Origin: Diphasiastrum complanatum
Lineage: Eukaryota > Streptophyta > Lycopodiopsida > Lycopodiales > Lycopodiaceae
Reading direction: 5' to 3'
Assembly: GCA_029204225.1 (NCBI GenBank)
Contig: CM055109.1
Location: forward strand, 3,238,147-3,302,146
Length of the DNA stretch: 64,000 nt
Each line of letters begins with the position of its first letter. Position 1 is the first letter of the stretch. The notes beneath the pieces were generated by a model. That model ran no database searches. It was given only the letters and a program-made list of their open reading frames with translations, and was not told where the DNA came from. The translations under genes and the position numbers were made by a program. This document shows, in pieces, positions 5,746 to 63,710 of the stretch.

Positions 5746-7182
5746 ATGCCAAGAACATACTCTCAAGAAATTATTGAACAGAAACATTTAGAACGTGCAC
5801 AACGTTTAGAAGCATATAGGAAGTCTAGAGATTTGTATTTGCAGAATTTGCAAAACTCACCAGTTAGAGCAAGATTAACACCTGAAGCGTTTAATGATCT
5901 TTTACACGCTACTACAACATTTGTAGATTCATTTGAGGAAAGATCCATTGAAACACCAAGTTCTACAGATTCATCTGAATCAGATTCGTCTGATTCCACT
6001 TCCGAACCAAGTTCAGACTCTTTGTCCGAGCGAAGTTTAGATTCAGATCCTCCAAGTTCATCTAGTTCACCACCATATGTTAATATGGCTAATCCAGCGC
6101 CACCCACATCTACAAAAATCAGATAGATGCGGATAGTTATATGTCGCAATTTGAATCCATTACCATAGCAAACAAAGAGCAGACGGACGAGGATAAAGTT
6201 AGAATTTTGCCAAGTCTTTTGCGGACGCAGGCTAGGATTTGGTACAATCAATAAGTTCCGAAAACAGTTAATACTTGGAGCGTCTTAAAAGCAACATTTC
6301 TTAAACAGTTTAGGGAGATAGGATATTCCACTAGATTGTTGGCTCGACTTAACTCTGTTGAAAAAAAAAAGCCAAAGGAATCAATTAGAAAATATACTCG
6401 TAGGGCTAAGAATTTAATAGGAAAGTTAGGAGCCCAGTATCCAGTTCCTATGCTAAATGAATGGTTCTTGGGTGGTTTGCCTAAGAAAATGGATTGTTAT
6501 TGTCAACAGGGTTTGATGACTTATTTGAAAGATGTCATTGCCTCTGCCGAGAATTACGAAACCTCTCGAATTTCTCGTAGACGGAGAAATGAAAGAAAAA
6601 TTAGTAAAAAACACAAATTTAAATGAACAGAAGAATCTGAAACATCTATTGAGTCTGAATCAGAATCTGATTCAGTGGATATGAAAGAATCTTCTGAGTA
6701 TTTATCTTATTATTCTTCATTGGAAGAAGAATTTTCTTATAGAAAAACTAAGAATAGGAATTCAAAAAGAAAGAAAAGAATGGAGAAATCCAAAAAGATG
6801 GATCCATTAAGAAAAAGTGTTGAGTTGTTCACAAGAGAAATGAGTGATCTAAAGGTCCAAATATCTGATGTTAAAGCCAAGCGAAAGAAAGCGAAGCCTA
6901 ACGCCAATGTTTGGTGTACCGCATGTGGGAAGGATGGTCATTCTAAGACCAACTGTCCCAGTTTACAAACTAATTATTTAGAAGAAGAACTATTCCTTTG
7001 TGGGGGAGGAACACGAGATTCCACTCCACCAACCAGAGTAAGGTTCGTGCTACAATTGCGGAGCGCCGGATCACTATTTGCCTGATTGCCCTGAGCCCAG
7101 GAGATCAGCAGGATATGTGCCACTCTGCGCTTACTGTAAAGGCGAAGGACATGTCACTACTGAATGTCCTCAGCCACAATAG
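5746..7182 (+). pseudogene. Gypsy H gag with three zinc knuckles
   Basis: Starts at the ATG at 5746 (MPRTYSQEII). A Ser/Asp/Glu-rich stretch follows at about residues 65-115, then after a frame break at about 6120 a retrotransposon gag domain (for example ARLNSVEKKKPKESIRKY, residues from 6336 on). Lys-rich spacers precede three CX2CX4HX4C zinc knuckles: CTACGKDGHSKTNC (near 6920), CYNCGAPDHYLPDC (near 7048, other frame) and CAYCKGEGHVTTEC (near 7130). Stops at about 6252 and 6624 and frameshifts interrupt it. In life it would package element RNA in virus-like particles. Orientation agrees with the primer site upstream. Confidence 0.8.
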
Positions 7183-8260
7183 CCACGGTCTAAACCAAGA
7201 TTTGTAAACTCGCCTAGGGAAGACGACCTTCGGCCATCTAAGACTAACACTAACATGATAGTTCATAGGATAGAAGTAGAGTCTGAATTATTAGATCAAG
7301 ATCTTCAATGGCCAGATTTAGAGGAAAAAGTAAATAAAGTAACTACAAGAAGTAGTAAAGATTCTTTAACTCTTAAAGATAAGAAGAAAACTAAGATGAA
7401 AATCGTGAAAACCGCAAAAAACGCGACAAAAAAAGCGAAGGTCGCAGAACAGCTAGTAAAAATTCTTAGTAATAAAGAATTAAAGCTTGATAAGTCTAAT
7501 GGAAAACATTATGATGTTGATATTAGTTCAGAAGCTAAGAAGCTTTTAGATGAAGAAACTAGAAAAGTTAAAAAAGTGACATTTTCAGATCCAGTTATAA
7601 GTAGCGAGATACCTAGAGATCTATCGCCACTTAGAAACCATTCTTATAATATTGTCGAAGACCTTGTTTCTAGAATGCCCAATATAACTTTTAAACAGTT
7701 ATTAGACAATAACCAATATTATAAAAAAAAATTAAGCAATTTTTGCAAAATAAAAAGAGAAAAAAAGCTAAGTTACCAATAGTCAACATAGGATTAGTTA
7801 ATTATGGTGATGAAGGCCAACCAGAGATTCAAGTAGTAATTAATGGCTGCATCTTAGATAATGTACCCATAGATTCCGGATCTAGTGTAAATATAATGAC
7901 TGAAGAAACATAATATGAATTAGGCATTCATCATAGAATAGCACCCACTTTAAGACATTTAAGGTTAGCCAATGCAACTAGAAGATCACCAATAGGAGAA
8001 CTATCTCAGGTTACAGTTAATATTGGAGACCATAAGTTTCTTATGGATTTTATAATAGTAAAAACTACGAGACAATCGTCATATAGAGTGTTATTAGGAT
8101 GACCATGGCTCTATCAGGCCGATGTTATAACCCACTGGAAGAAAAAGGAGATTACCTTTAGAGACCAGATGGAGACACCGACAGGAAGAAGTCATAAAAG
8201 AATTTCCATATCATGGGAAAAAGATAAGTATGAAGGTGAGACACCTACATCTTCCTCCAA
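7183..8260 (+). pseudogene. Gypsy H spacer and aspartic protease remnant
   Basis: A Lys-rich spacer (open from 7255 to 7782) is followed by an aspartic protease in another frame. The active-site motif is PIDSGSSVNIM near 7866-7898 and the conserved LLG-PWLYQADV follows near 8090-8125, with a stop replacing one residue of it. A further stop lies near 7911. In intact elements this enzyme matures the Gag-Pol polyprotein. No reverse transcriptase or integrase follows; the sequence passes into repeat E at about 8260. Confidence 0.78.
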
Positions 8261-11200
8261 ATTCACAGAGAATCTTGCAGTTCGGTGGTTTTGGGAAAAT
8301 CATCAGTGTTGGCTACGTTATTCACTGTGTGGACAGCAGTTTGGCACAACGGGGCTTGCACGGAGATGCAAAGAGCAGTGATAGAGAGCCATAACAATTT
8401 ACAGAAAACAATTTGGTTGAAAACGGAGGAAATTTGGAAAATTTCTAGTTTTGTGGGGTGTTGACGGATTTCTTGGAAAATCGGCTTGTTTGTAGTCAAT
8501 ACCGCATCAATTGGAGAACTGTAAATTGGATCAGATCATTGGAGGTAGGGCGACCTCAGTGGTATAGGAAGCTGCAAGAAGAACCACTGAAAAATGCCCA
8601 AGAAATCTCTCTTAGTTATTGAGCTAGGGCTTACAGTCTGGAAATTGGTGGATATCTCTCTATAGAAGATGGAATTCGAAGCTATAAGGGCTTACAGTTG
8701 AGCGCCTTGGTGCTGCCAAGGAGTGGCTAAGTGGCCATGGTCAGCCATGATGCATGAGAAGAGCAGTTTACCCTTGAAGCTATGGAGCTTTCTAATATCA
8801 AGGGTTTCAGATCAAAAATCCTGAAATCTCTCTCATTAGGCAATGCTTTTGGAAGCTGTTAATGGATGTTTTGGCAGTGCGACCTAGGCTGCAATAGGCC
8901 GTGGGCGGCAATAGATTAGAGGAGGAGTTGGATCAATCCAAAGAGAGCGTAGAAACCACCATAGCTTGAAAGCTAAGAAGGAAGATAGATGAATAGCCAC
9001 GAGGAGGCTGTTGCGCGCGTGGAGAGGAGCCAGCACATAGTGTGCTAAGGTTGACGCGGCTGAAAGGGATTAGTTTGGAGCGCGAAATCGTGTGTAGCCG
9101 TAGGATTGAACATCTCATAAATCAATGGTTGTTATTCAAAACTCGGGGAGCTATGTAGGCCATTGGATTTGAATTAGCCATTGGATATGGCTGAAGGGGG
9201 CTTTGAAAGGGCCCAATGGAGTTGAAAGGCAAATTGGGCTTTTGTTTCATTAAAAACTTTCAATGTGAAATTCATTGAAGGGACCCGAAGTCCAGAATTT
9301 ACTTCACTTCATTAAAATTCTTCAAAAGGGCTAACTATAGCTAGAAGGAATCTTTTTTGGCCATCCTTGGGCCAAATTAACCCCTGAAACTGGTTGCTCA
9401 GAGCCAGCGGATAGAGCAACGTCATAAACTTGGGAGAAATGCATTTCGGAGTGTTTTTGTCACCATTCTATCAAGCGGAGTGCAGGTGACCTAGTGATGG
9501 ACTACATTCATCATTTGGGTACCGTAGGGCCAAATTTGGGGCAATTTTTGGCTGGTGAAACCTGCTACATGGTGGTACAATGAGGCATTATCACTTCAAA
9601 ATCATTATTACTTACTCCTAACAGGGTAATAGGGTGTTTGGAAGTGGTAAATGTAGTATGGGAGCGAATGGTAGTGGAATTGTGTGGAGAAAGCTAGTTT
9701 TGACTACGGAAGTGTAGTTTGGTGGTGTGACTACTCATCATTGGCGACAATTTTGAGAGGGCAAGCAATCACAGGTGAGAGATAGGCATGGTATGCCGAT
9801 TCCAGGTAAAAAATTCTTGTGATCAGGTTCAACTCTTGGGGTTCGAACCAACTAACATCAAGTGGCATTTTGGAGAATGCTCTCACAGGCATCATCGGCG
9901 ATGGTATTGTCGAGTCAGGTGATAGTTGCATTGACACACGCATTTGTAGCTTGAAAATTTCTCGTTCGGAGAGAAATATGGGCTAGCTTGGAGGTACACA
10001 CGTATTGGTGGTCACAGGTGATGGAAGTGTCAGTTGGTGCCAGTTGAAAGCCATTGGACAAGATACGGACTTGCATTGGATGAGCTGTGTGTGGGACACG
10101 CAGGAGATGAAGAACGGGTCAATAATCACACTTTGGATGCTCTTGGCGAGTGGTGAGTGTGATGATTTTGTGGTTTTGCAGTTGGTAAGTCAATTTTGAT
10201 CAAGTCATTGTAGTTGTAGAGCAGTGTATCAGGATTGTCATCGAGAGATACACTTCAACTGCCTATTCTGGATAAGTCAAGTCAATTTGCCATATCAGTA
10301 TTGCATCAGGGATGCAGATTCCAGTGATAGTAGGGTACATATTGTTTGGTTTGGGCCATGGAAGATCTCACAGGTTCACTTGGAGGGATATTGTCATGTC
10401 ACATCATGTGAGGGACTTGATGGTGGCTTTGGAGTTCAATCTCAGTGTATTCTTAGGGAGTGGTTTGGAACCATTCACAGGAGCAGCTTGGAGCTATCTT
10501 GGAGGAATATAGGTGGGCACTACAGGGTAGATGCTCAGATCTTTGTGATCAGTGATGGCATTGGGATACCTGGTAGGGATAACATTGCAGGATGACATGG
10601 GATGATCATCAGGGGGTAGCTATTTCATATTGGACTTGAGTCATTGGCATGGACATGACTTGCAGGTGGGATTCATGATGGAATCAAGAGGCTGCAAACG
10701 CAAATGGGCAAAGCGTGAAGCTTTGAGAGCCAACTCTAGGTTGGAGAGCTGATGGAGGTCGCACGGGGTGTGATCGGAGGGCAAACACTATGATGGGTGT
10801 TTTGTTAGCGATCTACTATAGGGGACACTGATGGCAAGGACTTCATGGTGTGCTCATTTGGGAGTACAGGATGGCATTACAGTAGGGGGCCAGTCATTGG
10901 ACATTGGCATCGATGGGGAGACATCTACCATCACAGGCGTGGATAAGCTACCTATAGCTTTCATGCATTTGGCTGTATTTGTAGGAGTATAAGCTTGGCA
11001 CAGGTGTTGGAAGATTCTCAGGTGGTGAGATCATGGATAAGCCTAGAGGGAGTCACTCAGAGCCATATACCTCAATATGATTAGGGAGATAGTAGTCTCC
11101 GGATCCCATGAGCGGCGACTCAGGGATATGCTTGCGTTGGCATGGTGTCAGGTGGCACATAGCTAGGGAGAGCGAGCAGATGCTAGGAGCCAGTGGAGCA

Positions 11201-13279: not shown

Positions 13280-14297
13280 CTAGATCCTAACGGAATTTCA
13301 ACTATTAAAATGTATGTTCAATGTATCTCATGGCACTAACTCTAAACACCCTTGTTTGTACTACATGAAAACAACAAAAGACATGACAAGGAGTACAGGA
13401 ATATCAAGAGATCAAGAAGATCCTAATTGAAAATCTGTACTACCGATTATTCTACGAAATGTTCATATCTGTACATTGCATGTGGAGGTGCGTATTATAA
13501 AAAATAATATATCTTCACATCTTGTTTGCATGGAATTCTGAGCCAGAGGCCTCTGCAAAGGAAGCTAATTCCAGATTAGAGGATGTGTTGTCCAAAGCAG
13601 GCTTACATAAAGGCCATGTTAAAATAAAAAAAGATGATAAGTTATCAGGTAAAACAAGAAATATTTCATGCAAGCCGAGCATTGGAGGATCTAAAGCTCG
13701 CAGATTTTTATCAAATTATTATGGCAAACAATCTAAGCTTCAATACATGGTTTGGAAAGAAATTATTGTAGCAACTCAAGATTTCAAAAAAGAAGGTTCT
13801 ACTTATATACACAAAGTAGAAGTTTGGAAAAAGTTAGACAACTTGGTGCAATACTTGAGAAAAGATAAATTTTCAAATACTGATGTTCAAATGATACAGA
13901 AAACAATCAATGAATTTGTGGATGCATGGGGTGTTGATCATATAACACATTATATGGTAAGATTTTGATTTTACACTACGATAGACAAATATGTGCAATT
14001 AAATTAGATACTTTTGGTACTGATTTAGATTATGTTTTTATGACATGCAGCACATATTACGATATCATTCGACATTCTTTGCAAAAAATAGTGGAAGTCT
14101 TAGCATATGGTCATCGCAAGGAACGGAAAAATCTCATTGGCAAGCAAGAGCGGCATTTCATAAAAGTACACAACATGGCGAGACTAGCACAAAAAACAGC
14201 CATATACTGCAACTTTTCCAATGGTTTTACAGAAAAATCCAAATTCGTCATAATACAAAATCGACGGATTATAAAAAATTTCATTTGCTAATGAATG
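13280..14297 (+). pseudogene. Transposase-like gene fragment, copy 1
   Basis: Homologous along its length to 62890-63480. The first part matches the zinc-knuckle region of copy 2 but has a frame break and stops. The best frame runs 13522-13956 (EANSRLEDVLSKAGLHKGHV, SCKPSIGGSKARRFLSNYY), with a splice donor TATATG/GTAAG at 13957 and acceptor GACATGCAG at 14042-14050. The next exon (14051-14297) starts HILRYHS and holds SGSLSIWSSQGTEKSHWQAR. Splicing restores the reading frame between two conserved blocks, so the intron is real for the ancestor. I recognise this only as an uncharacterised eukaryotic family that looks transposon-borne; the DDE residues are not proven. It ends at the copia C junction. 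Confidence 0.6.
13957..14050 (+). other. Intron in the transposase-like fragment
   Basis: 94 bases, GT...AG, AT-rich, with several stops in the reading frame. It separates exon ends whose joined frame continues the conserved protein. An intron argues for descent from a DNA transposon or host-type gene and not from a retrotransposon. Confidence 0.65.
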
Positions 14298-16908
14298 TTT
14301 GAAGAAGCAAAGAGATGAAGGTAGCAAGCAAATCAACTTTACTACTAATGATGAGGATCTAGGTGGTGGTGATTCTCTTTTGATGTGTTGTTCAAGTCCA
14401 ATATCAAGTGAAGGTGACAAGGATTCATGGTGGATTGATAGTGGAGCTAGTTCACACATGACTAGTCACAAGGAGTTCTTTACTTCTTTGGTCACTTATG
14501 ATGGAGCCAAGAAAGCAATTCACATGGCCAATGGTGGTGAGTGTGTGATCGAAGGTATTGGTTCAATTCCTATTTGTCTCTCTACTAATAGGAAAGCAAG
14601 ACTTGATGGTGTTCTTTACATTCCTTCACTTTCAAAGAATTTGCTAAGTGTTGGTCAAATAATAGAGAAAGGATACATGGTAAAGTTTGGTGGTGATGCT
14701 TGTTTCAATACAAAGGAATAGATCTTGGTTGCTAGGGGCAATAGACAAGGTAGACTTTTCAAGAGGATGGAATGGAAAGGAGATTGGTCTCAACTTTCCA
14801 AAGTTCCTTTTAGCATCAATAAGATTGGTGGATCTTATGCAAAGTCTAAAAAGCTTCCTTATGCTAGACCTAGGTCAATATCTAATATGCTTCTTGGAGA
14901 TGTTCATCTTTGTGCTAACTTGGCTAGTCTTGAGGATAATGATGGTGTTTCAATGGTTCTTCATGGCAAGTGCAAGCATGCAAAAGGTAAGGAAAGAGCT
15001 AACTTCATCAATGGAGGTGAAGGTTCTTCCTTGAAAAAGATTGTTGTTAATGATTTCTTTGATCATATGGAAAAAGATGTTGTTAGGTGCATGCATGAAG
15101 GAGATGGTTCTTCTACATTCTTTTTTTATGATTCCAAGAAAGTAATTTTTCCAGCAAATGGAGTCACGTGTCTTCATAAAGAGAGTATATCAAATGTTTC
15201 TATCAAGAGACTTGGTGAGGGAGATAGTCACAAGTCAAGAAGAAGAGAAGTATGTGAAAAGTTCAAAGTAGGATGTACTTTGATTGATGTCATTGTGAAT
15301 GATAGTGAGGAAGAATCATTATCATATGAGTCATTACCTAAAACATTGAGTAGAAGTTCTTGTTTCAAAAGAGAGAGTACTTCAATCATCCTTATGTTGA
15401 AGGTACTAATAATTTTTTTCATGGCTTCTAATGTTTTTGAGGTTTCTACTTCTTATGATGCAATCATTAAGAGGGAGTCTTACGAAGGAAAGAACAATGG
15501 AAGATTGGTTCTTGGGAAGATCCAAGGCATGGATCTCACATCTCTTCATCAACTCAAAGGATTCTATGATTGTGAATTGATCACTCATGGTCGAGATGGC
15601 AAAAGGTTGGTTGGAGAAGACTACATGGAACAAATCGAGAGGCAATTTTTTCAAGACAAGGGAGATCTCATTGGTGAGCTTATTGAGGTTTGTTATGGAC
15701 TCAAGAAGGCTGGATTTATTAGGTTTAATACTCATCTTCACCTACTCTACTTCATGCTGGATGGAAAGTTTGGAATCTATCTTTTGATTTATGATGGTGA
15801 CATTGGTGACATTGTATTCACTAACCTTTGTGGAAATTCAAGATCAAGCATTGATGAGATCTTGTTGGATCTAGATTATATGTTTGAGAGAGAGTATTTC
15901 CAGAGGTTCAGGTCTAAAGATATTCATATCTTTGATATCTCTGATGATCGAGAGAAAGGTAAGCAGGTGGAAGCGACTCATTTTGCTTTACTCACATGTT
16001 TTGGAGAATTTTCTTGTGTAGATGATGCTATGCAAGTGGATATTGGTTCTCATGGTTTTCATACTGGAAAAGAAAGTAATGGATTTGAAAAAAAAAGTTT
16101 GTTCCATAACTTTGATGGTCAAGAGGAAGATCAAGAGGTTGGTCTCAAAGGGCTTCAATAACACAAAAGGAAATGTGGCAATTTGGAGCTAGTCAAGAGC
16201 ATCAAAGGAGAGGTAATTGGCAAAGATGTTATGGATCTATTTTTGTAGCTTATTAAAAACTCAATTAAGTTCAAAGGAGAAGCAAGGAAGTGTTATTCAA
16301 GTTTACTTTACTTGTTCTATCTCATGTTTGAACTATTTCATGTGGATGTGTGCAAATTGTCAAGATATGGACAAACTAGCTACATTGTCTTGCAATATCT
16401 TATTGTTGGAGTTGTACTAGCATTCTTGGCTGGTTTTGCTGATGGAAATGAAGCTATTAGAGGTTCATTATTTCACTCATTCATGGCCAAGTCATCAAGT
16501 GTTGATGATATCTTGTGGAAAGATGGAGATGGAGGCTCATTCATAGAGTTTTATGGTGGAGACATATCAAGAAAGGACAAAGTTGGAGGAGACAAGCAAG
16601 CAAATGGCCATCACTCACATTTATTGTTTGGTTGCTGTAATTTTCCAGAGAGTTCAAAGTTTGAAACATGGAAGAATTATTTCATTCACATTCTATTTGG
16701 TTCTTCATGTTCTAGTTATATCTTGATGTGTAAAATTGATGTAAGAGATGGTGAAGCATCCAATTTGGACACTATTCTCTATATCAATTATGAAAGATAC
16801 TTTAGAACCTTAGAAAGGAGATCTATACTTAGGATCGAGATCATTCTAAAGTTGGATCAAAGTAGTATGGTTAAAACTATGCCAAAACTAGTTGAAGAGA
16901 GAGTGTGA
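14298..16908 (+). pseudogene. Rearranged Ty1/copia element C (protease plus altered pol)
   Basis: The left end enters a copia polyprotein just after the zinc knuckle; gag and the 5' LTR are missing. 14298-14721 carries a good protease (WWIDSGASSHMT) and ends in TAG. A second ORF, 14725-16161, is open for 478 residues but only loosely follows copia integrase and reverse transcriptase: LPYARPRSIS matches the integrase zinc region of element D, and YMEQIERQFF, CYGLKKAGF and IYLLIYDGDI mirror RT blocks, with YVDD changed to YDGD. A third ORF, 16312-16908, ends LVEERV at the LTR like element D. No working RT is left. The long open frames are odd for plain decay. Confidence 0.72.
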
Positions 16909-17520
16909 GAGATTTCAACTAGTTTAGTCTAGTTTAGTCACCATTTTGGTAAATTGTCAATAAGAGGCCAAAACTCATTTTAGACTTATAGATAAATTTT
17001 TTGAAGTTATATTAGTTTAAAATACATTCAATAAACACTTTTTGAAAGTGTGGGAAAGTTGGTAGTCGAGTTTGAGAGAGATTCAAATTTGAACTTTGGG
17101 TACATTGAATCTAGACCCAAAAATAGTAGGGTTTACATTTTGGAGGAAAAGCCAAGTGGCAAAATAGGGTCTGGACACTCTATAAAAGGATGTAACTCAT
17201 GGAGAGACACATCTTCTCTCTTCTCTCTCTCAATTCATTATTATACATGGTTCTCTTTGGGTTCTACTACTCATTGGTGCACTATCTTGGTGATATCTTG
17301 CAATCTTGTGTGTAGAATGCTTATTTATTGCTATTTTCGGTTCCACACGTGTGAAATATAGTAGGGTACTATAATTTTATGGATAACAAACATATTTTAT
17401 GTTTTGGTTCATGTTTGATCAATATCTCTTAGAGTTTGCATCTCATTTTGTATGTAGATGCTGTTTTTTCTACATTGGCAGGATTGTTGGTTTGCTCCTT
17501 ATTGTAACCAAAGATCAGGG
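16904..17520 (+). repeat. 3' LTR of copia element C
   Basis: Begins TGTGAGAGATTTCAACTAG, overlapping the stop of the last ORF as in element D. TATA box CTATAAAAG at 17180-17188, pyrimidine-rich leader at 17216-17240, and palindrome CACACGTGTG at 17344-17353 shared with the D LTR. The right end is set by alignment with 32061-32794 and is approximate. Confidence 0.65.
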
Positions 17521-17734
17521 ACATGGATTGGATCTTGAATGATCTAAAATCCTTCAAACAATATTGCTTTCGAGCGTGCATCTCTTTTCTGCAAACAATC
17601 TCTGTAGATATTGCGTTCGAAACCGATATTCAGTGTTGGTATCGATCTCAAGCGTCCTTTCATCGCAAATTTTTTTGTTTTGATCCACTTTTGTTTTGTT
17701 CAAACTTCTTTTTGTTAATTTTCTTCTTCCAAGA

Positions 17735-19834
17735 ATGATGGCCAGTACCAAATCCACGGCCCATGCCATCACCACTGTACAGCCATCCCATTCTCGTGTT
17801 CCCCCTGGTACTAGCCGTAGGCATGGCAAGAAGCAGGTCTGGCTGAGGGAGATCAGAAAACTCCAGAGATCAACTGAATTGTTGACCCCTAGAGCTTCTT
17901 TTGGCCGATCTGTACAGAATGTCACTCTGTCACTTGGGCTGGATGTTCGTTTTGCCGTGACAACCATGCAGGCCTTGCAGGGTGCTGCAAAAGTTTTTCT
18001 GTCTCATTTTTTTGAGGATACTTGTCTTTTGGTAGTGCATGGTAAGTGTGTCACCATCATGCCAAAGGATTTTGTCATTCTCAAAAGGCTTCGGGACAGA
18101 TATTCTGGTCTGCATGTTGATAATGTCAGCACCTCCAGAGACCTGCCTCTGGATAGAACCAACATGCCTACTACCTCTAGGAGGAAGAGAAAGCAGGCTG
18201 TCCTCAAGAAGGCTAAATCTCGAAGGCCAACTGCTTCTCTTCCTCCTAGACGTATCCCAGCCAAGAGACCCCGTGTTTTCCTGAGCTCTGAGTCAGATGC
18301 TGGAGAATGACTCAGATCGAGAATCTTCACCCAGTCCTCCTCCTGTTATTCGTCTACCTCCTCTGTAGGTTTCATCACCAAAAGTGTTGATTACCCAAGA
18401 GGAGCTAGACAGAATAACAGAGAAATCTGTAAATATTCTTTCCACTTCTATTTCTGCTCATGTACATAATGTTTTTGTGAGACTTCCATACGATCCAGCC
18501 CAGGTTTTTTTTTATTCTGACCATTATAATCAATACGAGGCCTACCTAGCTAACAAAATTGATCTTCTCGGCAACTTCTTTGATTTTTTTCTTTCAGATA
18601 CACGTAGAAGCTTTAGATTAGGTCCCAAATTTTGTGCCGAGCTAAAAGATAAGACCTCAAAAATTTCAAATGCAATAGTAGAGCTGGAGTTTCTTTTTTG
18701 CAGAATAGTATTAGTTTCGATTCCCATGGTATAGTTTTTGTAGTTAGTCCATTTTTCATGGGAGCGGTAAAGGCGAAAGAAGCCAATTTTGAGAAGGCTG
18801 TCCATTTTATCGAGTGCAGTCCTATGGCAAAATTTTATTTGATTCCATATGAAAATAAGTAAGGATTGCTCTTTTCTTTTTGTTGCTTTAATTTGGATTG
18901 TTGCATGCCTCATTGCTTTAATAAGAACGGATTTTTTTCATAAATATGAATTTAACGATATTTGTATCTTGGTTGTTGCAGTCGGCATTGGAGCCTAAAC
19001 ATTCTTTTTGTAAAGATAAATAAGGAGGGAGTATCATATTTTCTATGTGTAAAATTAAACTCAACTGCAAATACACATAGAGAATTTAATTCTCTACTTC
19101 ATGATGTCGTTCGGGAAATACCGACAACAACAACTTCGATTGGAGATATAACCATTAAATCTCACAAGGTATATTCAATTTATCTCTGATATGCATGTAT
19201 TTCTTTTTTTAATTCAAATGTATCGTCATAGCATAAATAAAATTTCTATCCAAATATTACTAATTTTCATTCTATATATGCAGTGTGTACAACAAAATGA
19301 CACACTTTTAGTCGTGCATGGTTCGTCCTGTACAATACGAAGCTATTTTTTGAATGGTATAATTTACAAACGGATGTAGATATTGAAAAGATAATATTCT
19401 ATTTATTTGTAGTTCATTTCATATTTTATTACTATCATTGTTTATAATTTGCTGATTCTCGTGTTTTGTGATGACAGTTCACTCTTGAGCCGTATACTCC
19501 TGATGATATATATAGATTTCGGCAAGAGTTGATCAGAACCTTTGCCCAGTACGGTGTAAGCGTTGCACCTGCAATCGAGGGCCCTCAAAGAAAAGCTGCT
19601 CCTGCCTTAACAGCCTTTCAGGTTGTTCAGGATGCAGATCTTATTTTATATGATCAAAAAGGAATAAAAGTCCTTTCCAATACAGAGGAAGGCAATTTTG
19701 TAGCAGATATTCCTCTTGTCTTAAAAGGCATTGAGGCCCTTCCTGAAACAGAGGAGGGCGAGATTATAGAAGGAGCTGTTGCTTTATTAGTTCCTAATAC
19801 TAATATAGAAAATATAGAAAAATTGATTGAATAG
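17735..19834 (+). pseudogene. Histone H3-like domain fused to a Ulp1/C48-like protease
   Basis: Residues 1-120 are an H3 histone: start MMASTKSTAHA echoes ARTKQTARKS, LREIRKLQRSTELL (residues about 36-49) is the alpha-N helix, DVRF and MQALQGAA follow alpha-1/alpha-2, and FFEDTCLLVVHGKCVTIMPK is the alpha-2/alpha-3 signature. The tail is about 12 residues short and lacks the K9 context; loop 1 has no CENH3-type insertion. A basic region follows (RRKRKQAVLKKAKSRR), then a Ser/Asp/Glu/Pro linker, a helical region (18384-18700) and a C48 fold: FYLIPYEN, then RHWSLNILF with the catalytic His, then VQQND. Introns at 18859-18981 and 19169-19283, another ending at 19477; last exon 19478-19834. Breaks: frameshift at about 18305, TAG at 18366-18368, frameshift near the T-run at 18690-18700, frameshift near 19305, and Arg (19313-19315) where Cys is expected. 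Start at 17735 or 17738. Confidence 0.8.
18859..18981 (+). other. Intron in the H3/C48 gene
   Basis: Donor AATAA/GTAAGG, acceptor GTTGCAG. Removing it joins the segment ending LIPYEN to RHWSLNIL in frame, exactly the place where C48 proteases have the core strand and catalytic His. A second intron, 19169-19283 (CACAAG/GTATAT to TATGCAG), joins IKSHK to CVQQND in frame. Confidence 0.7.
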
Positions 19835-20198
19835 AGATCTATTTGTAAATAGAGACATAAAACAAAAAAGATACAATCATTTTACTTGTAAACAACCCGT
19901 TTATGGGTTTTTTTTAATTGATATCACAATAGATTCTTACAATCAGCTTGTGTCCATAGTCTAATAATGAAATGCAATTTTTCTATAATGATAAAAAGAC
20001 ATTGGCATGTATTTGTTGATAGTGAATCTCAATGTTCTTCCATAAGTTGGATTGTTTCGCCAATATCTCTGCATTTGATCTCAGCTCATTTCTTTTACAT
20101 ACCTGCATAAAATTAATACAAAGTTAGTTAGAATTAGTCCAGAGTTTGTATTAGAAAGTTTTGATTGAAACTATTCATAAAAGATCGAGTGTTTACAG
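19835..20198. other. AT-rich spacer between two convergent gene remnants
   Basis: No ORF or repeat recognised. It separates the H3/C48 gene end (plus) from the minus-strand remnant at 20199 and probably holds both 3' ends. Confidence 0.5.
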
Positions 20199-20936
20199 TT
20201 ACTTTACGAGTTTACCATTGAAAATGAATCTGAAGTCTGAAAGTACATCATCTTGTAGGAGCAATAGTTCCCACCGGATGTAGTTTAGACACCAATCTTC
20301 TTCCGCCTCAACACGTGTCAAAACGGCATCATTGTATATAATTTCAATATTTTTTCGTTTTGAATGTCCACTGGCTTCCAAGTCTTGATCAAGTGGCACC
20401 CATTTACCTTTATTTTTTTTCCATCTTTGATAATGGAAGCATAAGCTCAACATTTGTTTTTCAATTTGATAACGGAAGCACATGGAAGACATTTTAATTC
20501 TGCATTCTATTTCTCCATCTGATCTTTTGTCCTAGCCTTCATCCATAAGTTCAGATAATAAACTATCTGATAAATTTTTGCATACAAATATCGTTGGGGT
20601 TTTGTGTATATTGACATTTGAAAAGAAATCCACAAATATATTCAAGGAAATAAACCAACTCAATCTGACTGTTTTTTATCTCGTGCTCATTTTTAATGAA
20701 TTTTTTACATCATTATATATCTTGCAACGAAATCATTTTGAAACTATAGCATCTAGTGCAATCCATTCATCACTTTCAAAGCTAGATAATGGAATTGGTA
20801 CTATTTGTCCAAAATTTTCTTTTGTATCAGGAATGTACATTGATTCATAAAAAAAAATTCCACCATCAGCTAGATCTTTTGCAGTTCTACCTCGATATTG
20901 CAGCTGTCCAATATCAGTGTGAATAACATCTAACAC
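20199..20936 (-). pseudogene. Unrecognised protein remnant, part of a transposon-like gene
   Basis: Two minus-strand frames look coding. 20936-20733 reads IGQLQYRGRTAKDLADGGIF and goes on to YMYIPDTKENFGQIVPIPL-like text (actual residues ESMYIPDTKENFGQ). 20492-20199 reads WVPLDQDLEASGHSKRKNIE and ends with DVLSDFRFIFNGKLVK. Between them lie stops and frame breaks, so it is dead or has an intron there. Amino-acid composition and lack of low complexity suggest a real former protein. I cannot name it. It faces the H3/C48 remnant tail to tail, an arrangement repeated at 63.7 kb, where the transposase-like copy 2 faces another minus-strand ORF. Confidence 0.45.
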
Positions 20937-20945
20937 ACCTGCTAA

Positions 20946-21221
20946 AGATCCAATCGGCTCTCATTCTTTTTTCAACCAGATCGACTAAACAAAGATTGGT
21001 GGTATATTGTTCAAATTAAGCCATGCTCAAGACATGTACTCAAAAATGCATTTGTTGAAAATGAAATGGAAGATATAAATTTGGACAACACAAGTATATA
21101 TGATGAAGATGTACATATATCTTTGAGTTCTATAAATAGTGAAAAGCAGAGAATTGATTCTCATGATTCCGACGACTCAGATGATGAAGAGAACAACAAT
21201 GATTCTTTGCATGAGGACAAT
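20946..21221 (+). pseudogene. Acidic ORF fragment cut by element B
   Basis: An open frame holds DRLNKDWWYIVQIKPCSRHV, then an acidic Asp/Ser/Asn tail, and is cut at the ACAAT target duplication of element B. On the far side (31067) the frame would run 13 more codons to TGA. The WWYIVQIKP segment resembles the tail regions of plant CACTA-type transposon proteins (DUF4216-like); that is a guess from pattern only. Confidence 0.35.
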
Positions 21222-21693
21222 TGTAAAGAACCTGAAGGAATAACCCCTAAGATGAGGAACACAATAGGAGAGACTATGGAGCCAAACTGCCCAACCAATC
21301 CTAGATCAAACCTGGATCTGGCTCCCAAACTATGCCATGTGAAGCAAGAGGAGAAGAGAGAATCTGGTAACCTAAACCCAATATGTCGACGAGAGAATCC
21401 CTACCTCATTATATAGAGAGTAGAGTCATGTGCATGAAACCATGCAACCCCCATGCAGGTCAACTATAAATAGGTCACATCTCTTCATGCAGTCCTCCTG
21501 CCTATATCCATTACACAGGCATGCAATGCTCCATATGACTCAATTAGAGTGTCTGGGTCCTCTCAAGGTAATTAGTCACAAACAGGCCTCAACATGAAAT
21601 TAAATTTCGGCGTGACCAATAATCTCGAACACTGGAGGGCCGGTCTACCATATTAAGACTATTTCAGGTCCTTAACCGAATATGGCCATAACA
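21222..21693 (-). repeat. 3' LTR of element B
   Basis: In element sense it runs TGTTATGGCCATATTCGG...TCTTTACA, 472 bases, matching 30586-31061 closely with scattered substitutions and a short indel near the start of the plus-strand copy. Confidence 0.88.
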
Positions 21694-30585: not shown

Positions 30586-31061
30586 TGTAAAGATCATGAA
30601 GGAACCCCTAAGATGAGGATATAAGAACACAATAGGAGAGACTATGGAGCCAAACCGCCCAACCAATCCTAGATCAAATTTGGATCTAGCCCCCAAGCCA
30701 TGCCATGTGAAGCAAGAGGAGAAGAGATGATCTGGTATCCTAAGCCCAATATGTTGACAGGAGAATCCCTACCTCATTATATAGAGAGTAGAGTCCTATG
30801 CATGAAACCATGCAATCTCCATGCAGGTCAACTATAAATAGGTCACATCTCTTCATGTAGTCTTCTTGCCTATATCCGTCACACAGGCATGCAATACTCC
30901 ATATGTCTCAGTTAGAGTGTCTGGGTCCTCTCAAGGTAATTAGTCACAAACAGGCCTCAACATGGAATTAAATCTCGGCGTGACCAATAATCTCGAACAC
31001 TGGAGGGCCGGTCTACCATATTAGGACTATTCCAGGTCCTTAACCAAATATGGCCATAACA
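30586..31061 (-). repeat. 5' LTR of element B
   Basis: 476 bases, TGTTATGGCCATATTTGG...CTTTACA in element sense; the ACAAT duplication follows at 31062-31066. Confidence 0.88.
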
Positions 31062-34950: not shown

Positions 34951-37900
34951 TTATATAGACCGATACAAATTGAGACTGCCACCACTTCGCTTTGAAAAGG
35001 AAGGATTCTTCTTAACAAAATTGCTACTTTTAGGATTGGCTTCCAGCAACATTTGAACTACCTCACGCATTGAAGGACGCTGCACTGGAAGGGTACTGGT
35101 GCAAAGAAGACCTATTCTCAGCACCATCATCGTTTCTTCCTGGAACTCTAATCCAATCCGAGGATCAAGCAGATCTTCAATGCCTCTTTTGGTTTGCAAT
35201 TTGTTGCACACCCACTTGACAAGGTCCTCACCATCACCAAACTCAGCTGAAATAGGCCTCTTCCCTGTCACTAGCTCCAGCAACACTACACCGAAGCTGT
35301 AAACGTCACTCTTCTCACTCACTTTCCACGTATACGCATATTCTGTAAAACAAATAATGTCAGACATCTCATTGTTGGTCAGAATAAATAAGAATAATCA
35401 AGAAAACAGCTCCAAAAAGGATTCATATCCATAAAGCAAGGTCTAATTGAGGTATACGTAGGAAGTCAAGGAACCATGCAAGAAAAGAAAATTAAGAGCT
35501 TTTTCCGAAATGAATGGAAGCAAAGAAACTCTAAGTTCTTAGTTAAACAGAGACGTGGAAGCAGATAGTAAGATTCTACAAATTGGAAAAATTTATTTTT
35601 GTTTAACTTCTACATGTCGCAAGAAGTATGCACTTAGAGTTATTGCTGATAAAGCATGAAATATTAGACAATTCAATCAAATTAACTAAAATTTAAAAAT
35701 GATGGATGTCGTATTTGGCGAACTTATGTCTATGAACATATAACTTTCATATTACGTTCATAAACACCTAGCAAAATGTAAGCAATGGAAATGCACCACA
35801 TATGAATAAACAAAATAAAGATGGCAATGCATGATATAAGATCTGTTACCAGGAGCTATGTATCCATATGTGCCAGCAACACTTGACATTGATACTCCTT
35901 TGGAGCAACTCTGAAGAATCCTTGCAAGACCAAAATCAGCAACATGTGCTTCATAATCTAAATCTAACAAAATATTGTTGGATTTGACATCGCAATGTAA
36001 AATCTGAGGTTTGTAATCATGGTGTAAGTAGGACAATCCCTCAGCTGCCCCCACGGCAATTTTGTGCCTTTTTGCCCAATCCAAAATGCTTGCCTTGGAT
36101 CCATGCAGCAAATCACCCAGGCTACCATTAGGCATGTATTCATACACCAGGAGCTTGGCACTGGGGCTTGAGCCGCAGCACAGGAGCTTCACAACATTTT
36201 TATGGCGCAGGTGGCCAAGCGTTTCTACTTCTGCCTTGAATCCATTGTCATGCTTTGTGCCGCTCTTTCCTTCAGTCCATAGTTTTTTCACAGCTACCAC
36301 TTGCCCATTGCTGAGAGTGCTCTTGTACACCTTGCCTGCACCGCCAGTTCCTATCACATTGTCCTCATCCAGGCTGCCCAATACTTCATATTCATTAAAC
36401 CCTAACTTATGAAAGGACGTGAGGTTCCATAATGCCTTGCACTCCTTTTCTTTTAAGAAGTTGACATGGAAGAAGCTACTTCTGAAATAGAAGCATACTC
36501 CTCCTACAAGGGAGACGAATGCAGCCACCAGGAATGTCCCACCAATCCACCATGCCACATCCTTGTGCTCTGTCTTGCTCATCCCATTTTCAGCTGATCT
36601 GGAACAAGGCATCACTGCCTGCAAATCTCTGCCACACAATCTAGGATTGCCAATAAAACTTGAATAAAAAGCACCATTAATCAGACTCTCAGGTACTGAT
36701 CCAATAAGATTGTTGAATGAAACATTGAACTCTGAGAATCGGATCATTCCCAACTGTGTCGGAATGTTGCCACTCAGCTGATTGTTTGAGAAATCAAGCT
36801 CTGTGAGAACCGTCAAGTTGCCTAGACTAGGAGGGATAGAGCCTGTCAGCCTGTTGTGAGATAGCTGAAGAACAGAAAGCTGATGGCAGTTGCTAAGTTC
36901 AGAAGGAACTGCACCAGAAAAGAGATTGTGATCAAGTAGAAGCTGATTCAAGCCCTCCAAACTCCCTATTTCCGATGGAATGTTTCCAGAAATCTGGTTA
37001 TGACTTGCCCACAATTTGTTCAGCTTTTGGAGATTCTGTATCTCAGAAGGAATGGTACCATTAAATTGGTTTCCTGCAATATACAATGTGGTCAGGTTGC
37101 TGGCAAGACTAATCTCAGAGGTGATGTTTCCTTCAAAATTGTTGTTGGAAAGGTCAAAAATGTAGAGATGGGGCGAGTTCCAAATATGGGCAGGAATTTT
37201 CCCTGAAAGCTTATTGTCACTCAGAAGTATCCGATAAAGGCTAGAACAATTGCCATAGGTTTCAGGAAGATTACCCGAAAAACTGTTATTGAACAAGATT
37301 AATTCCTGAAGCTGGCCATCCCTGCATAGATTTGGAGGAATGGAACCATGCAGATCATTCAGCGAAACATCAAAGTATTCAAAGGGACATGCATCCCCAA
37401 AAGTTTGTGGAAGCTGGCCAGAGAAATGATTGTTGAAAAGCCTCAGCTTGCTCAACCTGGGAAGCATTGCGAGCTCAGGAGGTATCTCTCCACTCAGCTG
37501 ATTTTGCCACAGGTGCAAAAGCACTAAGGTTTTCAGCTTAGTGATGTCTGAAGGAATAGTTCCGGTCAAGGAATTGTTTGAGAGATCCAAATCAGTGATG
37601 GCGAGGAGGTTCTGCATGACTGTGGGAATCTGTCCACTGAGCTGGTTGCTGTAAAGCTCGAGCTTCATCAGCTTCGGAAGGCGCATGATTCCTGCAGGAA
37701 TGTTGCCATGCAGGAAATTACAGGACAGATCAAGAAAGAAAGTTAGCTCGGTTAAATTGCCCAAAGAGTCTGGAATCGATCCGATAAGGTTGGCAGTGGA
37801 AAGATGGAGATTCAGCAGCTGGTGCAAGTTCCCTAGCTTTGCAGGAATCTCTCCTTGTGCAAAGGGATTATATGCAAGATCTAGCCACTTCAAGTTGCTG

Positions 37901-38484
37901 AGATTCCCGAGAAACGCCGGAATGGTCTCATTCAGTAAATTGTTGGTAAGATTAAGACTCTCAAGCTGACTAAGTTCTCCAAACCCAGATGGAATCGGAC
38001 CTGAGAAGTTGTTCCCGTTGAGATCAAGATTCGTCAAACGCTGCAGCTTGGAAATGCCAGTGGGAAGAACGCTTACGATCAAATTTTGACTGAGATTCAA
38101 AAGCATGAGATTATTGCATCCTAGAAGCTCATCCGGAAAGCTTCCGTTTAGAAAATTGTTTCCCAGATTGAGAGATGTGAGGTTGCGTAGCAGACACAGC
38201 CCAGATGGCAGAGGCCCTGCCAGATTCATGTTGGAAAGATCAACTTCAGTGACCACGCCAGTGGTATTGTCGCACGTGACGCCTGTCCAGGAACAAGGCA
38301 TACCGTCCGACGCAATCCAATTGTTGAGAAGCCCTTGTGGATCCTCCAGACCTTTCTTCACCTCAATTAGAATGCTAACCTCCTGAGAGGCTTCACAATA
38401 AACAAGAGAGGCGAGGTCAAAGAGTCCCATGCAGTATACCAAGAGGAATGCCAGGATACACCACGTGTTTTTTTCTCTCGCCAT
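34951..38484 (-). CDS. LRR receptor-like kinase, HAESA-LIKE type (class XI)
   Basis: Two exons: 38484-35850 and 35342-34951, with the intron GT at 35849 and AG at 35343; joined length 3027, giving 1008 residues. Signal peptide at residues about 1-30, LRR cap CSWTGVTC at about 64-71, some 20 LRRs to about residue 600, closing cap with a Cys pair (LCG...MPC), transmembrane helix at about 643-668, then a Ser/Thr kinase with GTGGAGKVY (about 707), VAVKK Lys (about 730), DFG (about 847), and APE spanning the splice site. Family members sit at the plasma membrane and bind small secreted peptides to control abscission, development or defence; which ligand is unknown. Odd point: the catalytic loop reads HCD (codons 35997-35989), not HRD, making it a non-RD kinase. 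The intron within the kinase domain fits the family. Confidence 0.93.
35343..35849 (-). other. Intron of the receptor kinase gene
   Basis: 507 bases, GTAACAG donor and TTTTACAG acceptor, phase 1. Splicing creates the APEYAYTWKVSEKSDVYSFG segment, conserved in the kinase family. Confidence 0.92.
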
Positions 38485-43478: not shown

Positions 43479-44131
43479 TGTGAAAAACTCAGATCCAAAA
43501 GATGCTAAAGTTTCATAAAGATCTTGGCCATGGAAGTTATGCACATCTAGATTGAAAAAATGATAGAAATTGTGATGTTAAGCATACTAAACATCAACTA
43601 AACATCAAAATCTGATCATAAGCTTCCACAAACAGAAACTTGCTGTCCCTGTCCGTACTTCAGAGCCTACAACCTGCATTTCACACGTGTGAAGCCATAG
43701 CAACAAAGAAATCACAATTCTAGTGGCTAGAATGCAAGATATGAACAAAAAAGTGAGAGAGAAGAAGATGGACCTTCAAAGAGCATAACATTCATTCAAT
43801 AGAATGAAAATGAGATGTGTACATACTCGTGGAGATGGCTATTTATAGCAGCCATAGTGCCTCTTGGCCACTTGTCTTATGATAGGCTAAAATTGGGGTC
43901 CAATAGGATTCACCCATATACCTAGAAATTTGGTCAAATAGGAATGCACCAAATTATGAGCCAATAGAAGAGCTCCACACTCGACCTCCTCTAATTAATG
44001 TGACCTCAAAAGTAGTGTACACATACTTTGGGCCTCTACATACATGTATGAACCTATCTCTAACTTTTATTTGGCCATAGGCCTACAAAATCTCAAGTTA
44101 GGAAAATACTACTAGTTGACAATTTTTCACA
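43479..44131 (-). repeat. 3' LTR of copia D
   Basis: TGTGAAAAATTGTCAACTAG to CTGAGTTTTTCACA in element sense. Contains CTATAAATAG at 43839-43848 and palindrome CACACGTGTG at 43682-43691. Confidence 0.95.
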
Positions 44132-47100
44132 CTCCCTCTTCAACTAGTTTTAGCATAGATTTAGAAAGTACACCAAGACTTGTTCTATGCTTGAAAAATA
44201 AGTCCTTTCCCAATGCTTTGGTAGAGATATCAGCCACACATTCCTTTGATGGGACATGTTCAAGCTTGATCTCTTTTGCCAACACTTGTTCTCTCACAAA
44301 ATGGTAAGCCACCTCGATATGTTTGCTCCTTGCATGGAAAACCGGATTGCTTGCTAGACTTTGGGCTGAAAGGTTGTCACAAAAGATGATTGGACTCTCT
44401 GAAAAATCCAGCAAATGAAGCTCCATAATCATCCTCTTGATCCACACCATCTCCTTTGTGCATGATGTCAAAGCTTTGTACTCGGCCTCACTAGAAGAAA
44501 GTGATATAGTTGCTTGTTTCTTTGACATCCATGAGATAGCTCCATCACCTATGAAAATAGCATGTGCATTTATGGATTTTCTATCCATAAGGTCTCCTGC
44601 AAAATCTGAATCTGAAAAACCAAATAAGTTAGGTGATGAGCCTCTATAAACAATGCCAAAATCTTTTGTTCCCGAGATGTATCTCAAGATCCTCTTTCCT
44701 AGTTTCCAATGTTCTATGCTAGGATCTTGCATGAATTGGCTTAATCTACCAACACAATAAGATAAATCAGGTCTTGTGATGGTTAGATATATAAGAGAAC
44801 CTATTAGCTTCCTATAGAGAGTAATGTCCTCGAAGGATCTTTCATTACCTCTTATAGTTAGCTTTACATGTGATTCCATAGGTGTATCAATAGGATTTGC
44901 ATCTACCATATGAAATCTATTGAGAATAGAAATAGCATACTTCTCTTGTGAAATAAAAGTGATTTGAGAAGTTCTAATTACTTCTATTCCTAAGATATAG
45001 CTCAAAAGACCAAGATCATGCACTTCAAATTCCTTTTTTAGTGCTTTCTTGATATCTTCTATATCTTCCTTGTTCCCTCCACTTAAAATAATGTCATCCA
45101 CATAAATTAGAAGGATTGTAACATCATTAGCACTAATTCTAAAGTAAAGTGAATGATCATACTCACTCATAGTGAAGTTTTGAGAAAGTAGAAAAGAGTT
45201 AAGCCTAGCATACCAACTCCTTGGTGCTTGCTTAAGACCATACAAACTTTTTTGTAGAAAACACACATGATTAGGCTTGCTATGAGAAACATAGCTCTCG
45301 GGTTGCTCCATGTAGACTTCCTCTTCAAGATCACCATTCAAGAAAGCATTAGAAATGTCTAATTGCCAAAGATCCCATCCATAAAGAGTTGCAAGGGAAA
45401 TGATTACTCTTATGCTCACCATCTTTGCCACGGGTGCAAAGGTTTCCTCATAGTCAATGCCATGCTCTTGAGCATAACCTTTAGCCACCAACCTTGCCTT
45501 CAACTTGTTGATAGATCCATCTTGATTTGTCTTTACCTTGAAGATCCATTTGCATCCAATTGCACTTTTGCCCTTTGGAAGCTCCACCAATCTCCATGTG
45601 TTGTTCTTCATAAGTGCTTCAAACTCAAGATCCATTGCTTGGATCCATTCCTCTTTTTGCCTTGCTTCATCTACACATGAAGGTACATCAAAAGAAGTTA
45701 GGAAAGCATAGTTGGATCCATCCACCACTTGCTTACCTTTGCCATCATAAGTGAGCCTTGAGGGTTTCACTTTATGCCTTGGAGTTCTCCTTGGAATTTG
45801 ACTTGAAGAGGCTTCTTCAACATCCACATCCAATGTGTCATCAACTCCATTGTCATCAAGCACATTAGTTGCAACAACACCATCATCACTTGAAACAACT
45901 TTTGGAATGTTACTTTCATCAAAAATGACATCCCTACTTGTGAACACTTTCTTGATTGAAGGAACATAAATCCTATATGCTTTGCTTACTTCACTATAAC
46001 CAACAAAAATGCCCTTTCTTGAAGATGGATCCTCCTTAGTTCTATCATCAAGAGTAATGTTGAAGTAGCAAATGCATCCAAAAGTTCTTAGAAACTTGAC
46101 ATTAGGCTTCGTACCAAACAAAGCTTCAAAAGGGGTTTTTCCTTCCAATACAACACTTGGCCATCTATTGCATAGGAAATTTGCACACAACAAAGCATCA
46201 CTCCAAAAAGGTTTAGGAAGATTAGCATTCAATCTCATTGCCTTTGCACTCTCACACAAGGTTCTATTCTTCCTCTCGGCCACTCCATTTTGTTGTGGTG
46301 TTCTTGGACATGTGTACTCCCTCTTGATCCCATGCTCATCGCAAAAGGCTTTGAATTTGTTAGAAATGTATTCACCACCATTGTCGCTCCTCAAGCATTT
46401 GATTTTGGTTGTAAATTGAGTCTCAATAGCAACTTTGAACTTGACAAACACATCAAACACCTCATCCTTGCTCTTTAGTAGATAAACCCAACAAAATCTA
46501 CTAAAATCATCAATGAAAGTTACATACATCTTAGCACCTCCATTGCTAATTGTAGTAACACCATGAATATCCGAATGCAAGAGAGAAAAAGGCATCTTAG
46601 ATCTAGATATAGATCTAGTATATGGCAATCTATGTGATTTAGACAAAGCACATTCTTCACAAACATGATTCAAGCAAGTAAGAGACTTGGGAAGTCCCCT
46701 TACTACCTCCTTTTTGGCTATTACCTCCAAGGCCTTGTAGTTGAGATGTCCCATCCTTTTATGCCATACCTCTTGAATTGACATTTGTTCATTTGCCATG
46801 CATCCAACTTGGTTAGCAACAACACATGCATCAAGCTTGAACAATTTCCCTTGCCTTTTCCCTTTTGCAATGATACTACACCCCTTTTTGATCAAGCAAG
46901 CATCACCATCAAACTCAACTTTGAATCCTTTGTCAAGCATTTGGCTTACACTAAGTAAGTTCTTGGTAATGGATGGAATGAGCAAAACATCTTTCAATTC
47001 TATATTCCTATTTGTAGAAAGTGAAATAGGAATTGTGCCAATCCCCTTGATTGCACACTCACCATCATTTGCGGTATAGATTACCTTCCTATCACCATCA

Positions 47101-48077: not shown

Positions 48078-48668
48078 GTTGCAATGATTGATCTCTGATC
48101 TTTGACCTGTTCCAATGCACTAAGCACTCTCTTGAATCAACAAATGAAACACAAGAAGAAATCACAAAGATTTGGAACCTAAAACCTTACTTTTTCTCTC
48201 TTTTCCTCACTTTTTCCTTAATTTTAGCCACTAGTTTTATGATTTCTTGATCAAACCAAGACCAAACCTCAATATACTTGCTTTTCCCTCACTCCTAAGA
48301 TTGAAATACACTCTTGAATCATTCAGCAAACTGAAAATCAGAGGGTTACATCAATTTTGAAGTTTTTGACATGAAGAAGCAAGAAATTGAATCAAAAAAC
48401 TATATGCTAGAATGGAAAACTAATAGGATCTTGTTGGATCTTGCATCTCCCTCTTTCCAAAACAATTTTTGTCTCCTTATTCTGATAAGTACAGAGGGAA
48501 TTCGCCCTACTTCAATTGAAATGCATACAAATGATGTTTTGATCACAAAGATCCAATTTCTACACATAAATCAACAAGATTTTTAGCTAGAAACTTGATT
48601 GGAATGCTACAAAAGCAAACTCGCCCACAAATCTCTTCTAAATCTGGCAAAACCTGCACATTTGGCCG
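48078..48668 (-). other. Leader of copia D
   Basis: About 590 bases of 5' untranslated RNA between primer site and polyprotein start; no ORF of note in element sense. Confidence 0.75.
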
Positions 48669-48686
48669 CCTAATGCTCTGATACCA
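48669..48686 (-). other. Primer binding site of copia D
   Basis: TGGTATCAGAGCATTAGG in element sense, directly next to the 5' LTR; perfect initiator Met-tRNA type. Confidence 0.95.
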
Positions 48687-62625: not shown

Positions 62626-62655
62626 AACGTTCAGTGTTCAATTGGAAAATCACAT

Positions 62656-63690: not shown

Positions 63691-63710
63691 TAGATGATCT
63701 TTTCGTAGTC

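Follow-up and report, generated by a model that had tools for sequence, protein, structure and literature searches.

Histone H3 genes carried by transposons have been described in fungi, where hAT elements of Pyrenophora tritici-repentis (H3L), Pseudocercospora and Cercospora carry histone H3 (PMC6710886, PMC3538342). Judging from the parts of these reports available to us, the fungal elements resemble the one described below in being DNA transposons of ~5.6 or 9.5 kb that are bounded by inverted ends and carry an H3 gene present in many copies (PMC6710886, PMC3538342). They differ from it in having a hAT transposase domain, whereas no Pfam transposase domain was found here, and, in Pseudocercospora and Cercospora, in making an 8-bp target duplication, of which none was seen here. 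A fusion of H3 to a C48 protease, as found here in two families of the element (A and B), goes unmentioned for the fungal hAT transposons in those parts, and the available text of PMC6710886 never uses the word fusion.

In plants, Ulp1 domains are carried by KIU (Kaonashi), the Ulp1-carrying VANC genes of non-TIR MULEs, or VANDALs, which belong to an anti-silencing family. As far as the accessible portions of the source go, the likeness to our element consists in a Ulp1/C48 domain on a plant DNA transposon, there within a protein of an anti-silencing family; the differences are that no histone is named there, while here the ends are inverted, the partner genes are others and H3 precedes the protease. 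Capture of H3 by transposons (fungal hAT) and of Ulp1 by plant MULEs is thus already published. A first-pass annotation of the present DNA had been aware of no description of H3 in one protein with Ulp1/C48. Transposon-borne H3 in itself is known, but no description of the H3–C48 fusion, or of the element itself, was found in the open-licence PMC literature. The word histone is also absent from the main text of a review on plant gene capture published in 2026.

The stretch of DNA analyzed here, referred to in the following as the window, comprises 64,000 nucleotides from Diphasiastrum complanatum. We consider it probable that it holds the decayed remains of one copy of a DNA transposon, and that in families A and B of this transposon H3 and a protease of the Ulp1/C48 type form one protein with a role directed at chromatin.

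The histone H3 domain and the remains of the element in the window

The H3 domain is encoded at 17738–18307 (+) of the window in an open frame of 190 codons, the product of which matched the Pfam Histone model (PF00125) with 73.2 bits (E 2.9e-20). Frame length alone is not decisive, since 9 of the 7067 stop-to-stop runs in the window are at least 190 codons long. The first-pass annotation had named an H3 fold with two blocks, LREIR...STELL and FEDT...VTIMPKD, and had regarded a poor score against H3 models as contrary evidence; both blocks were found in the window reading, and the Histone score, far from poor here, is 97.3 bits in L025, a copy elsewhere in the genome. By phmmer, H3 and CENP-A chains in the PDB matched the window ORF with E ~1e-18. 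The product starts with MASTKSTAH, followed by a short tail, the H3 fold and a basic/acidic linker. A prediction from 33 sequences gave, with moderate confidence (mean pLDDT 62.5), helices of the fold at residues 31–44, 55–66, 70–104 and 109–123, and the best Foldseek match of this model was nucleosomal H3, although weak (E 0.13); the window ORF folded poorly from its single sequence (pLDDT 42). A protein search gave 66 matches from 209 candidates, each with a Histone domain, at 34–52% identity. The element's H3s share the H3 fold and an ARTKQTAR-like tail start with H3 and CENH3, but are set apart by this level of identity of the window ORF, by a residue 9 that is not lysine, by a tail that is short or replaced and, in families A and B, by a C-terminal extension.

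Running the histone model against the plant's own genome (1.74 Gb) yielded 6325 first-look candidates, of which 150 were scored, giving 153 matches. Among the matches listed, 13 scored 163.7–165 bits and the rest lower; L001 and L004, both of which were read, are canonical H3. Twenty loci chosen for long open frames were examined: one of family A (the window's kind), six of family B and 13 of family C, to which two further family A loci, L029 and L030, were added. The sample includes near duplicates, L014 and L015 being 99% identical over 10 kb and the pairs L016/L026 and L017/L027 each sharing a flank. One locus, L038 (G000:C13:7457200-7459199), carries a further divergent H3 type (RAPFMRIIKKMM...) with a long branch in the tree, perhaps from another family.

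A translated comparison of L022 and L029 showed four conserved coding regions: G1 (+), G2 (−), G3 (+), which is the H3–C48 gene, and G4 (−). Remains of the element cover window positions ~13293 to 20970. The features are as follows, the last line being a separate piece:

13293–14281 (+): fragment of G1, the putative transposase; residues ~435–703 of the L022 reading (tblastn E 1.5e-83)
14282–17558 (+): Copia-related DNA, foreign to the element, sitting where other copies carry element DNA
17559–17737 (+): 5′ leader of the H3–C48 gene; homology with L029 and L020 from 17559
17738–18307 (+): exon 1, first part, with tail start, H3 fold and linker; ends past the frameshift at ~18300
18308–18858 (+): exon 1, second part, with linker and N-terminal part of the protease; its start is in the H3 frame in L020
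18982–19168 (+): exon 2, HW box; Asp position is Asn (KLNS); homologous exon in L022, L025 and L029
19284–19390 (+): exon 3, with the QQND box; the frame is interrupted and the catalytic Cys replaced by Arg
19478–19834 (+): exon 4, C-terminal part; a gene model of Diphasiastrum complanatum matches it with 81% identity across 70 aa
20205–20966 (−): G4, residues ~127–378 of the L022 reading, convergent to the H3–C48 gene (tblastn E 5.8e-93)
62546–63929: part of another such element, separate from the main copy, with G1 (+) at 62546–63426 and G2 (−) at 63593–63929 (tblastn)

The limits of the H3–C48 gene, 17738–19834, agree with those given before. The G1 fragment matched in three pieces (13293–13526, 13501–13956 and 14048–14281), and its DNA is 89.5% identical to L029 over 13338–14281. 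Homology to L029 breaks off at 14281 and restarts at 17559, with ~2.96 kb of L029 absent in between. The intervening Copia-related stretch ends in an LTR of ~650 bp that starts at ~16906 (limits set by eye against the window's Copia copies), and the stretch 16259–17559 was also found next to L021. On the G4 side, DNA homology to L029 and family B ends at 20970. The window contained no element ends matching a 22-base end pattern, and no convincing repeat pair was found around the gene. A CACTA DUF4216 remnant considered at ~20945–21240 was rejected, no Pfam match being found there. Directly beyond the truncated end lies, at 21222–21693, one of three copies of a ~470 bp repeat that are 82–91% identical (the others at 30586–31061 and 54572–55026).

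The window gene has five defects: two frameshifts, at ~18300 (junction SSESDAGE / NDSDRESS) and ~18700; a TAG at 18366–18368; the broken frame of the QQND exon, with Arg for Cys; and an AT instead of GT donor in the last intron, which is also AT in L029 and is GT in L030. Read through these, the protease part comprises a segment to FYLIPYEN, a GT–AG intron, NRHWSLNI..., another GT–AG intron, CVQQND... and a last exon, FTLEPYTPDD.... When the protease part was used in a protein search, the 1407 candidates yielded a single relative, a gene model of Diphasiastrum complanatum that matches the last exon and no other part. The C-terminus of P0086 (Diphasiastrum complanatum O6H91_Y440400) is like the element's last exon, and this gene model is apparently an annotation or exonisation chimera. 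An 18-bp direct repeat (89%) between the H3 CLLVVHG stretch (18026–18043) and the QQND exon (19305–19322) is perhaps due to chance.

Fusion of histone H3 to a C48-type protease

In families A and B, the H3 and Ulp1/C48-type protease domains are fused in one protein. The spliced product of L025 (470 aa) settles this, as it matched both Histone, with 97.3 bits, and Peptidase_C48 (PF02902), the latter with 42.1 bits (E 1.1e-10) against a cut-off of 20.7 bits. In L020, the H3, the linker and the start of the protease lie together in a single 332-codon stop-to-stop frame. The order H3, linker, protease within one gene, as read by the first-pass annotation, is therefore borne out, and the profile check of a spliced product that it had proposed gave matches to both models.

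Further evidence for the identity of the protease came from the PDB, where the protease part of L025 matched a Ulp1-like SUMO protease (E 3.9e-4), and from a profile–profile comparison of the less broken relatives with SENP/Ulp1 (probability 89.9%, E 1.7e-6 in a single comparison, 187 columns). Against a small SENP/Ulp1 profile, L022 scored 21.9, L025 21.8, L012 13.6, L028 10.8 and L029 8.8 bits, and the best of 5000 shuffles of L022 reached 9.6 bits; L029, or the window copy with its 6.3 bits, would thus be unconvincing as C48 if taken alone. The score of the window copy, obtained with a three-sequence profile, was reached by 4 of 5000 shuffles. Its read-through protease part had no Pfam match at E ≤ 10 and matched only one unrelated chain in the PDB (E 0.17); in pairwise alignments with SENP/Ulp1, 22–60 of 1000 shuffles aligned equally well, and the hhalign probability was 0.8%.

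All four exons of the gene are open in the family B copies L022 and L025. Stops or gaps occur in at least one exon in L012, L013 and L028, also of family B, and no match to exons 2–4 was found in L021. Families A and B have their introns at matching positions. The active-site order in the H3–C48 copies is HW ... N ... PQQ ... CG, and the QQND exon reads PQQNNSFSCGW in L022, PQQNDSFNCGW in L025 and QQNDTFSCTW in L029. Positions of the catalytic His, Gln and Cys are intact in L022 and L025. The Asp position of the triad, however, is Asn in all seven copies read, and the Cys position is occupied by Tyr in L028 and by Arg in the window copy, making protease activity uncertain. Compared with Ulp1/SENP (C48) proteases, the protein thus has the catalytic domain, at the Pfam score given above, and the order HW–Q–CG, but differs in the Asn for Asp, in a CG that follows S or N instead of D, and in the attached histone.

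The transposon, its ends and its families

The H3–C48 gene belongs to a DNA transposon of 8.7–9.3 kb, and the earlier proposal of a mobile element carrying H3 joined to a Ulp1/C48 protease is supported: the domains are fused, the units have inverted ends, and the copies are repeated. In a DNA search with window positions 17735–19834, 40 of 2758 candidates were scored, giving 40 places of up to 2.1 kb with 100% identity for the window itself and 89–94% for the others. Thirty of the 40 span H3 and protease, beginning at or before query base 87 and reaching at least base 1807, so the two parts mostly travel together. Four places begin at query positions 219–274, inside the H3 fold, and six at 486 or beyond; of the six, two are accompanied by a separate piece of H3 and four show none. 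By eye, the scored copies are scattered in position over many chromosomes.

The inverted ends are ~35 bp long and of the form CATTAG...CTAATG. In family B they read CATTAGAGGAGTTCTCAATATCAAAAAGAC, with few differences, at both ends of two complete copies of 9305 bp (C2:20439105-20448409) and 8681 bp (C7:71809545-71818225). Both ends are present in L022x, L025x and L019x; single ends were seen in L012 and L021, where the 3′ end is precise, and in five more loci of family C. The ends of family C elements read CATTAGGGCCCTTTTTGGACTC..., and the outer end was found in six loci that represent four distinct sites, since L016/L026 and L017/L027, with their shared flanks, count as two. The complete family C copy, L019, is 8955 bp long and likewise ends in CATTAG/CTAATG. 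No target-site duplication was seen in any of the three complete copies, two of family B and one of family C. Behind an inverted element end in L020, coordinates ~6100–10000 hold a second like element with its own H3 (~8134) and G1.

These observations bear on two other origins for the gene. The H3–C48 gene might be a normal plant gene family, with unrelated transposons making up the surrounding repeats, and its introns and purifying signature do look gene-like. Set against this, however, are the 40 scored places with 89–100% identity, the units with inverted ends and three more coding regions in common, and the complete copies, which contradict it by having precise ends at sites unrelated to one another; we consider this origin highly improbable. 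Histones and proteases resembling Ulp1 occur in some giant viruses, and both kinds of protein could on that account be the relic of a large DNA virus. The ~9 kb size of the units, their inverted ends and their introns of spliceosomal type speak against such a relic, and two scans of viral contigs, of a kind that detects close relatives only, gave no relative, so that a viral source seems very doubtful.

The other coding regions gave no match above a Pfam cut-off in G1, G2 or G4. G1, which includes the stretches EWHLAGDLKTL, HPCLYC and SQGxEKxH, is the putative transposase. Membership in the hAT superfamily was not supported, as no hAT domain was found in G1, G2 or G4 and no 8-bp target duplication was seen in the three complete copies. 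Membership among MULEs or KIU-MULEs was likewise unsupported, with no MULE match at E ≤ 10 in the same three regions, although a divergent MULE domain in G1 could escape because its exon limits were guessed. One exon of G4 had a match below cut-off that was TnsA-like (E 0.003), but it did not recur once the exons were joined.

Family C is more distant and has G1, G4 and an H3 protein in common with families A and B. Among six family C loci tested, G4 was found in all six (26–32% identical in pieces) and G1 in five (31–52%), the exception being L010, where it was not found in the stretch examined. G2 was found in none of the six, and a 323-codon minus-strand frame of family C showed no likeness to it. 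The protease profile found nothing in nine family C loci, from which it follows that the protease is not essential to this type of element. The possibility, raised earlier, that H3 and protease are always separate genes in relatives thus does not hold in families A and B, given the fusion, while in family C H3 occurs without a detectable protease at those nine loci. In the literature that could be searched, no description of a superfamily with CATTAG...CTAATG ends was found. The element adds a type of transposon whose proteins other than H3–C48 have no match above a Pfam cut-off.

Selection on the histone and its possible role in chromatin

When L012 and L013 were compared with L021, L022, L025 and L028, the other group of family B, the H3 fold had dN/dS values of 0.07–0.19 at dS 0.45–0.58 in all eight pairs, and the rest of exon 1 had 0.30–0.53 in the same between-group comparisons. 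The H3 fold is thus under purifying selection between the family B groups. Within the group of L021, L022, L025 and L028, which are young copies, six pairs gave looser values of 0.29–1.53, as expected if many copies are dead. The pair L012–L013 gave 0.21 and three family A pairs 0.36–0.65; between families A and B, dS was saturated. For family C, the pooled pN/pS was 0.42 (78 pairs from 13 copies). In the comparisons of L012 and L013 with the other B copies, dS of the H3 fold exceeded that of the remainder of exon 1 by a factor of more than two; one guess is that the excess comes from recombination between subfamilies.

A recognisable H3 tail start was present in all 23 copies (13 of family C, six of B and four of A, including the window), for example MARTKQTARD, MDRRKQTRRD and MARTKSTARA. 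Residue 4 is Lys in 22 of them and Glu in L020, residue 9 is Ala, Asp or Gly and never Lys in all 23, and ARKS was found in none of the 23 between the tail start and the fold (six were read in the tail frame only). Nine copies have the tail and the fold in a single open frame: three of four in family A, five of six in B and one of 13 in C, L009, so that in family C it is this copy that links tail to fold.

One reading of the gene is that host H3 and C48 genes were captured by chance and have no role for the element. Captures of both kinds are known, at least from the available parts of the reports on fungal transposons and plant MULEs discussed above, many of the present copies are broken, and the family A pairs have H3 dN/dS values of at least 0.36. 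The low values in all eight between-group pairs of family B nevertheless make such a passenger unlikely, and the H3-like tail start in every copy and the presence of H3 across families whose G1 proteins are only ~31–52% identical in pieces also speak against it; we rate chance capture as improbable.

In the tree, the H3s of families A and B group together (98/96), and the transposon H3s split from the rows of host H3 and CENH3, weakly (78/88) in a short alignment with provisional CENH3 letters. Compared with the same provisional letters, CENH3-like features are an IPxAPF stretch and, in family B, one extra residue in loop 1. An origin from CENH3, suggested by IPxAPF, was unsupported by the tree with its weak split.

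The silencing of transposons works through histone marks and also involves SUMO pathways; in plants, H3K9 methylation is used. An action of the H3–C48 protein on chromatin, for which the first-pass annotation had named integration, evasion of silencing or packaging as possible purposes, would fit the conservation of the fold, the form of the tail and the selection on the histone. Together with a residue 9 that leaves no K9 mark possible, and with the presence of Ulp1 in anti-silencing genes of the VANC type, these features make an anti-silencing factor the likeliest role, which we propose tentatively, as a function that is quite possible. By means of its H3 fold, which would pair with H4, the H3–C48 protein would enter chromatin or dock on it, and the transposon H3 would be unable to receive the methylation at H3K9 and H3K27 that goes with silencing. 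The domain resembling a SUMO protease might then strip SUMO, or a relative of it, from silencing proteins bound to chromatin, with the result that copies of the element would remain expressed and mobile. It would in this way work like the VANC/KIU proteins of plant MULEs, with the histone in place of their DNA-recognising part.

The main rival to anti-silencing is guidance of integration, in which the H3 part, with or without H4, would sit in the transposition complex and steer insertion to particular chromatin, for example regions with H3K4-type marks or centromeric chromatin. The occurrence of H3 in all three families alongside the transposase-like G1 would suit such a factor, as would, more provisionally, the CENH3-like features described above. 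However, the scored copies are scattered over many chromosomes, as judged by eye, and the tree, weakly, keeps the transposon H3s apart from CENH3; we regard a targeting function as unlikely, if less so than chance capture.

Returning to anti-silencing, a broader and more speculative proposal is that the elements with CATTAG...CTAATG ends form a plant DNA-transposon superfamily with a standing H3 variant of its own, free of K9 and K27 marks and joined in some families by a deSUMOylase, which would build element-specific chromatin resistant to silencing. An H3 of the element's own, under purifying selection and lacking Lys 9, would amount to a counter-move made at the nucleosome itself, and would make it testable whether a selfish element can alter the chromatin it lies in through a histone variant that it supplies.

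Some other features were seen in passing. P0084 (763 aa, source ena), from a group of six member sequences, has a C-terminal H3 domain and no other Pfam match above cut-off, and is possibly viral. An open frame of 908 codons at 35758–38484 (−) of the window looks like a leucine-rich-repeat receptor kinase. A Copia retrotransposon at 43479–49339 (−) has an open frame of 1316 codons and two identical 653-bp LTRs, and was therefore probably inserted recently.
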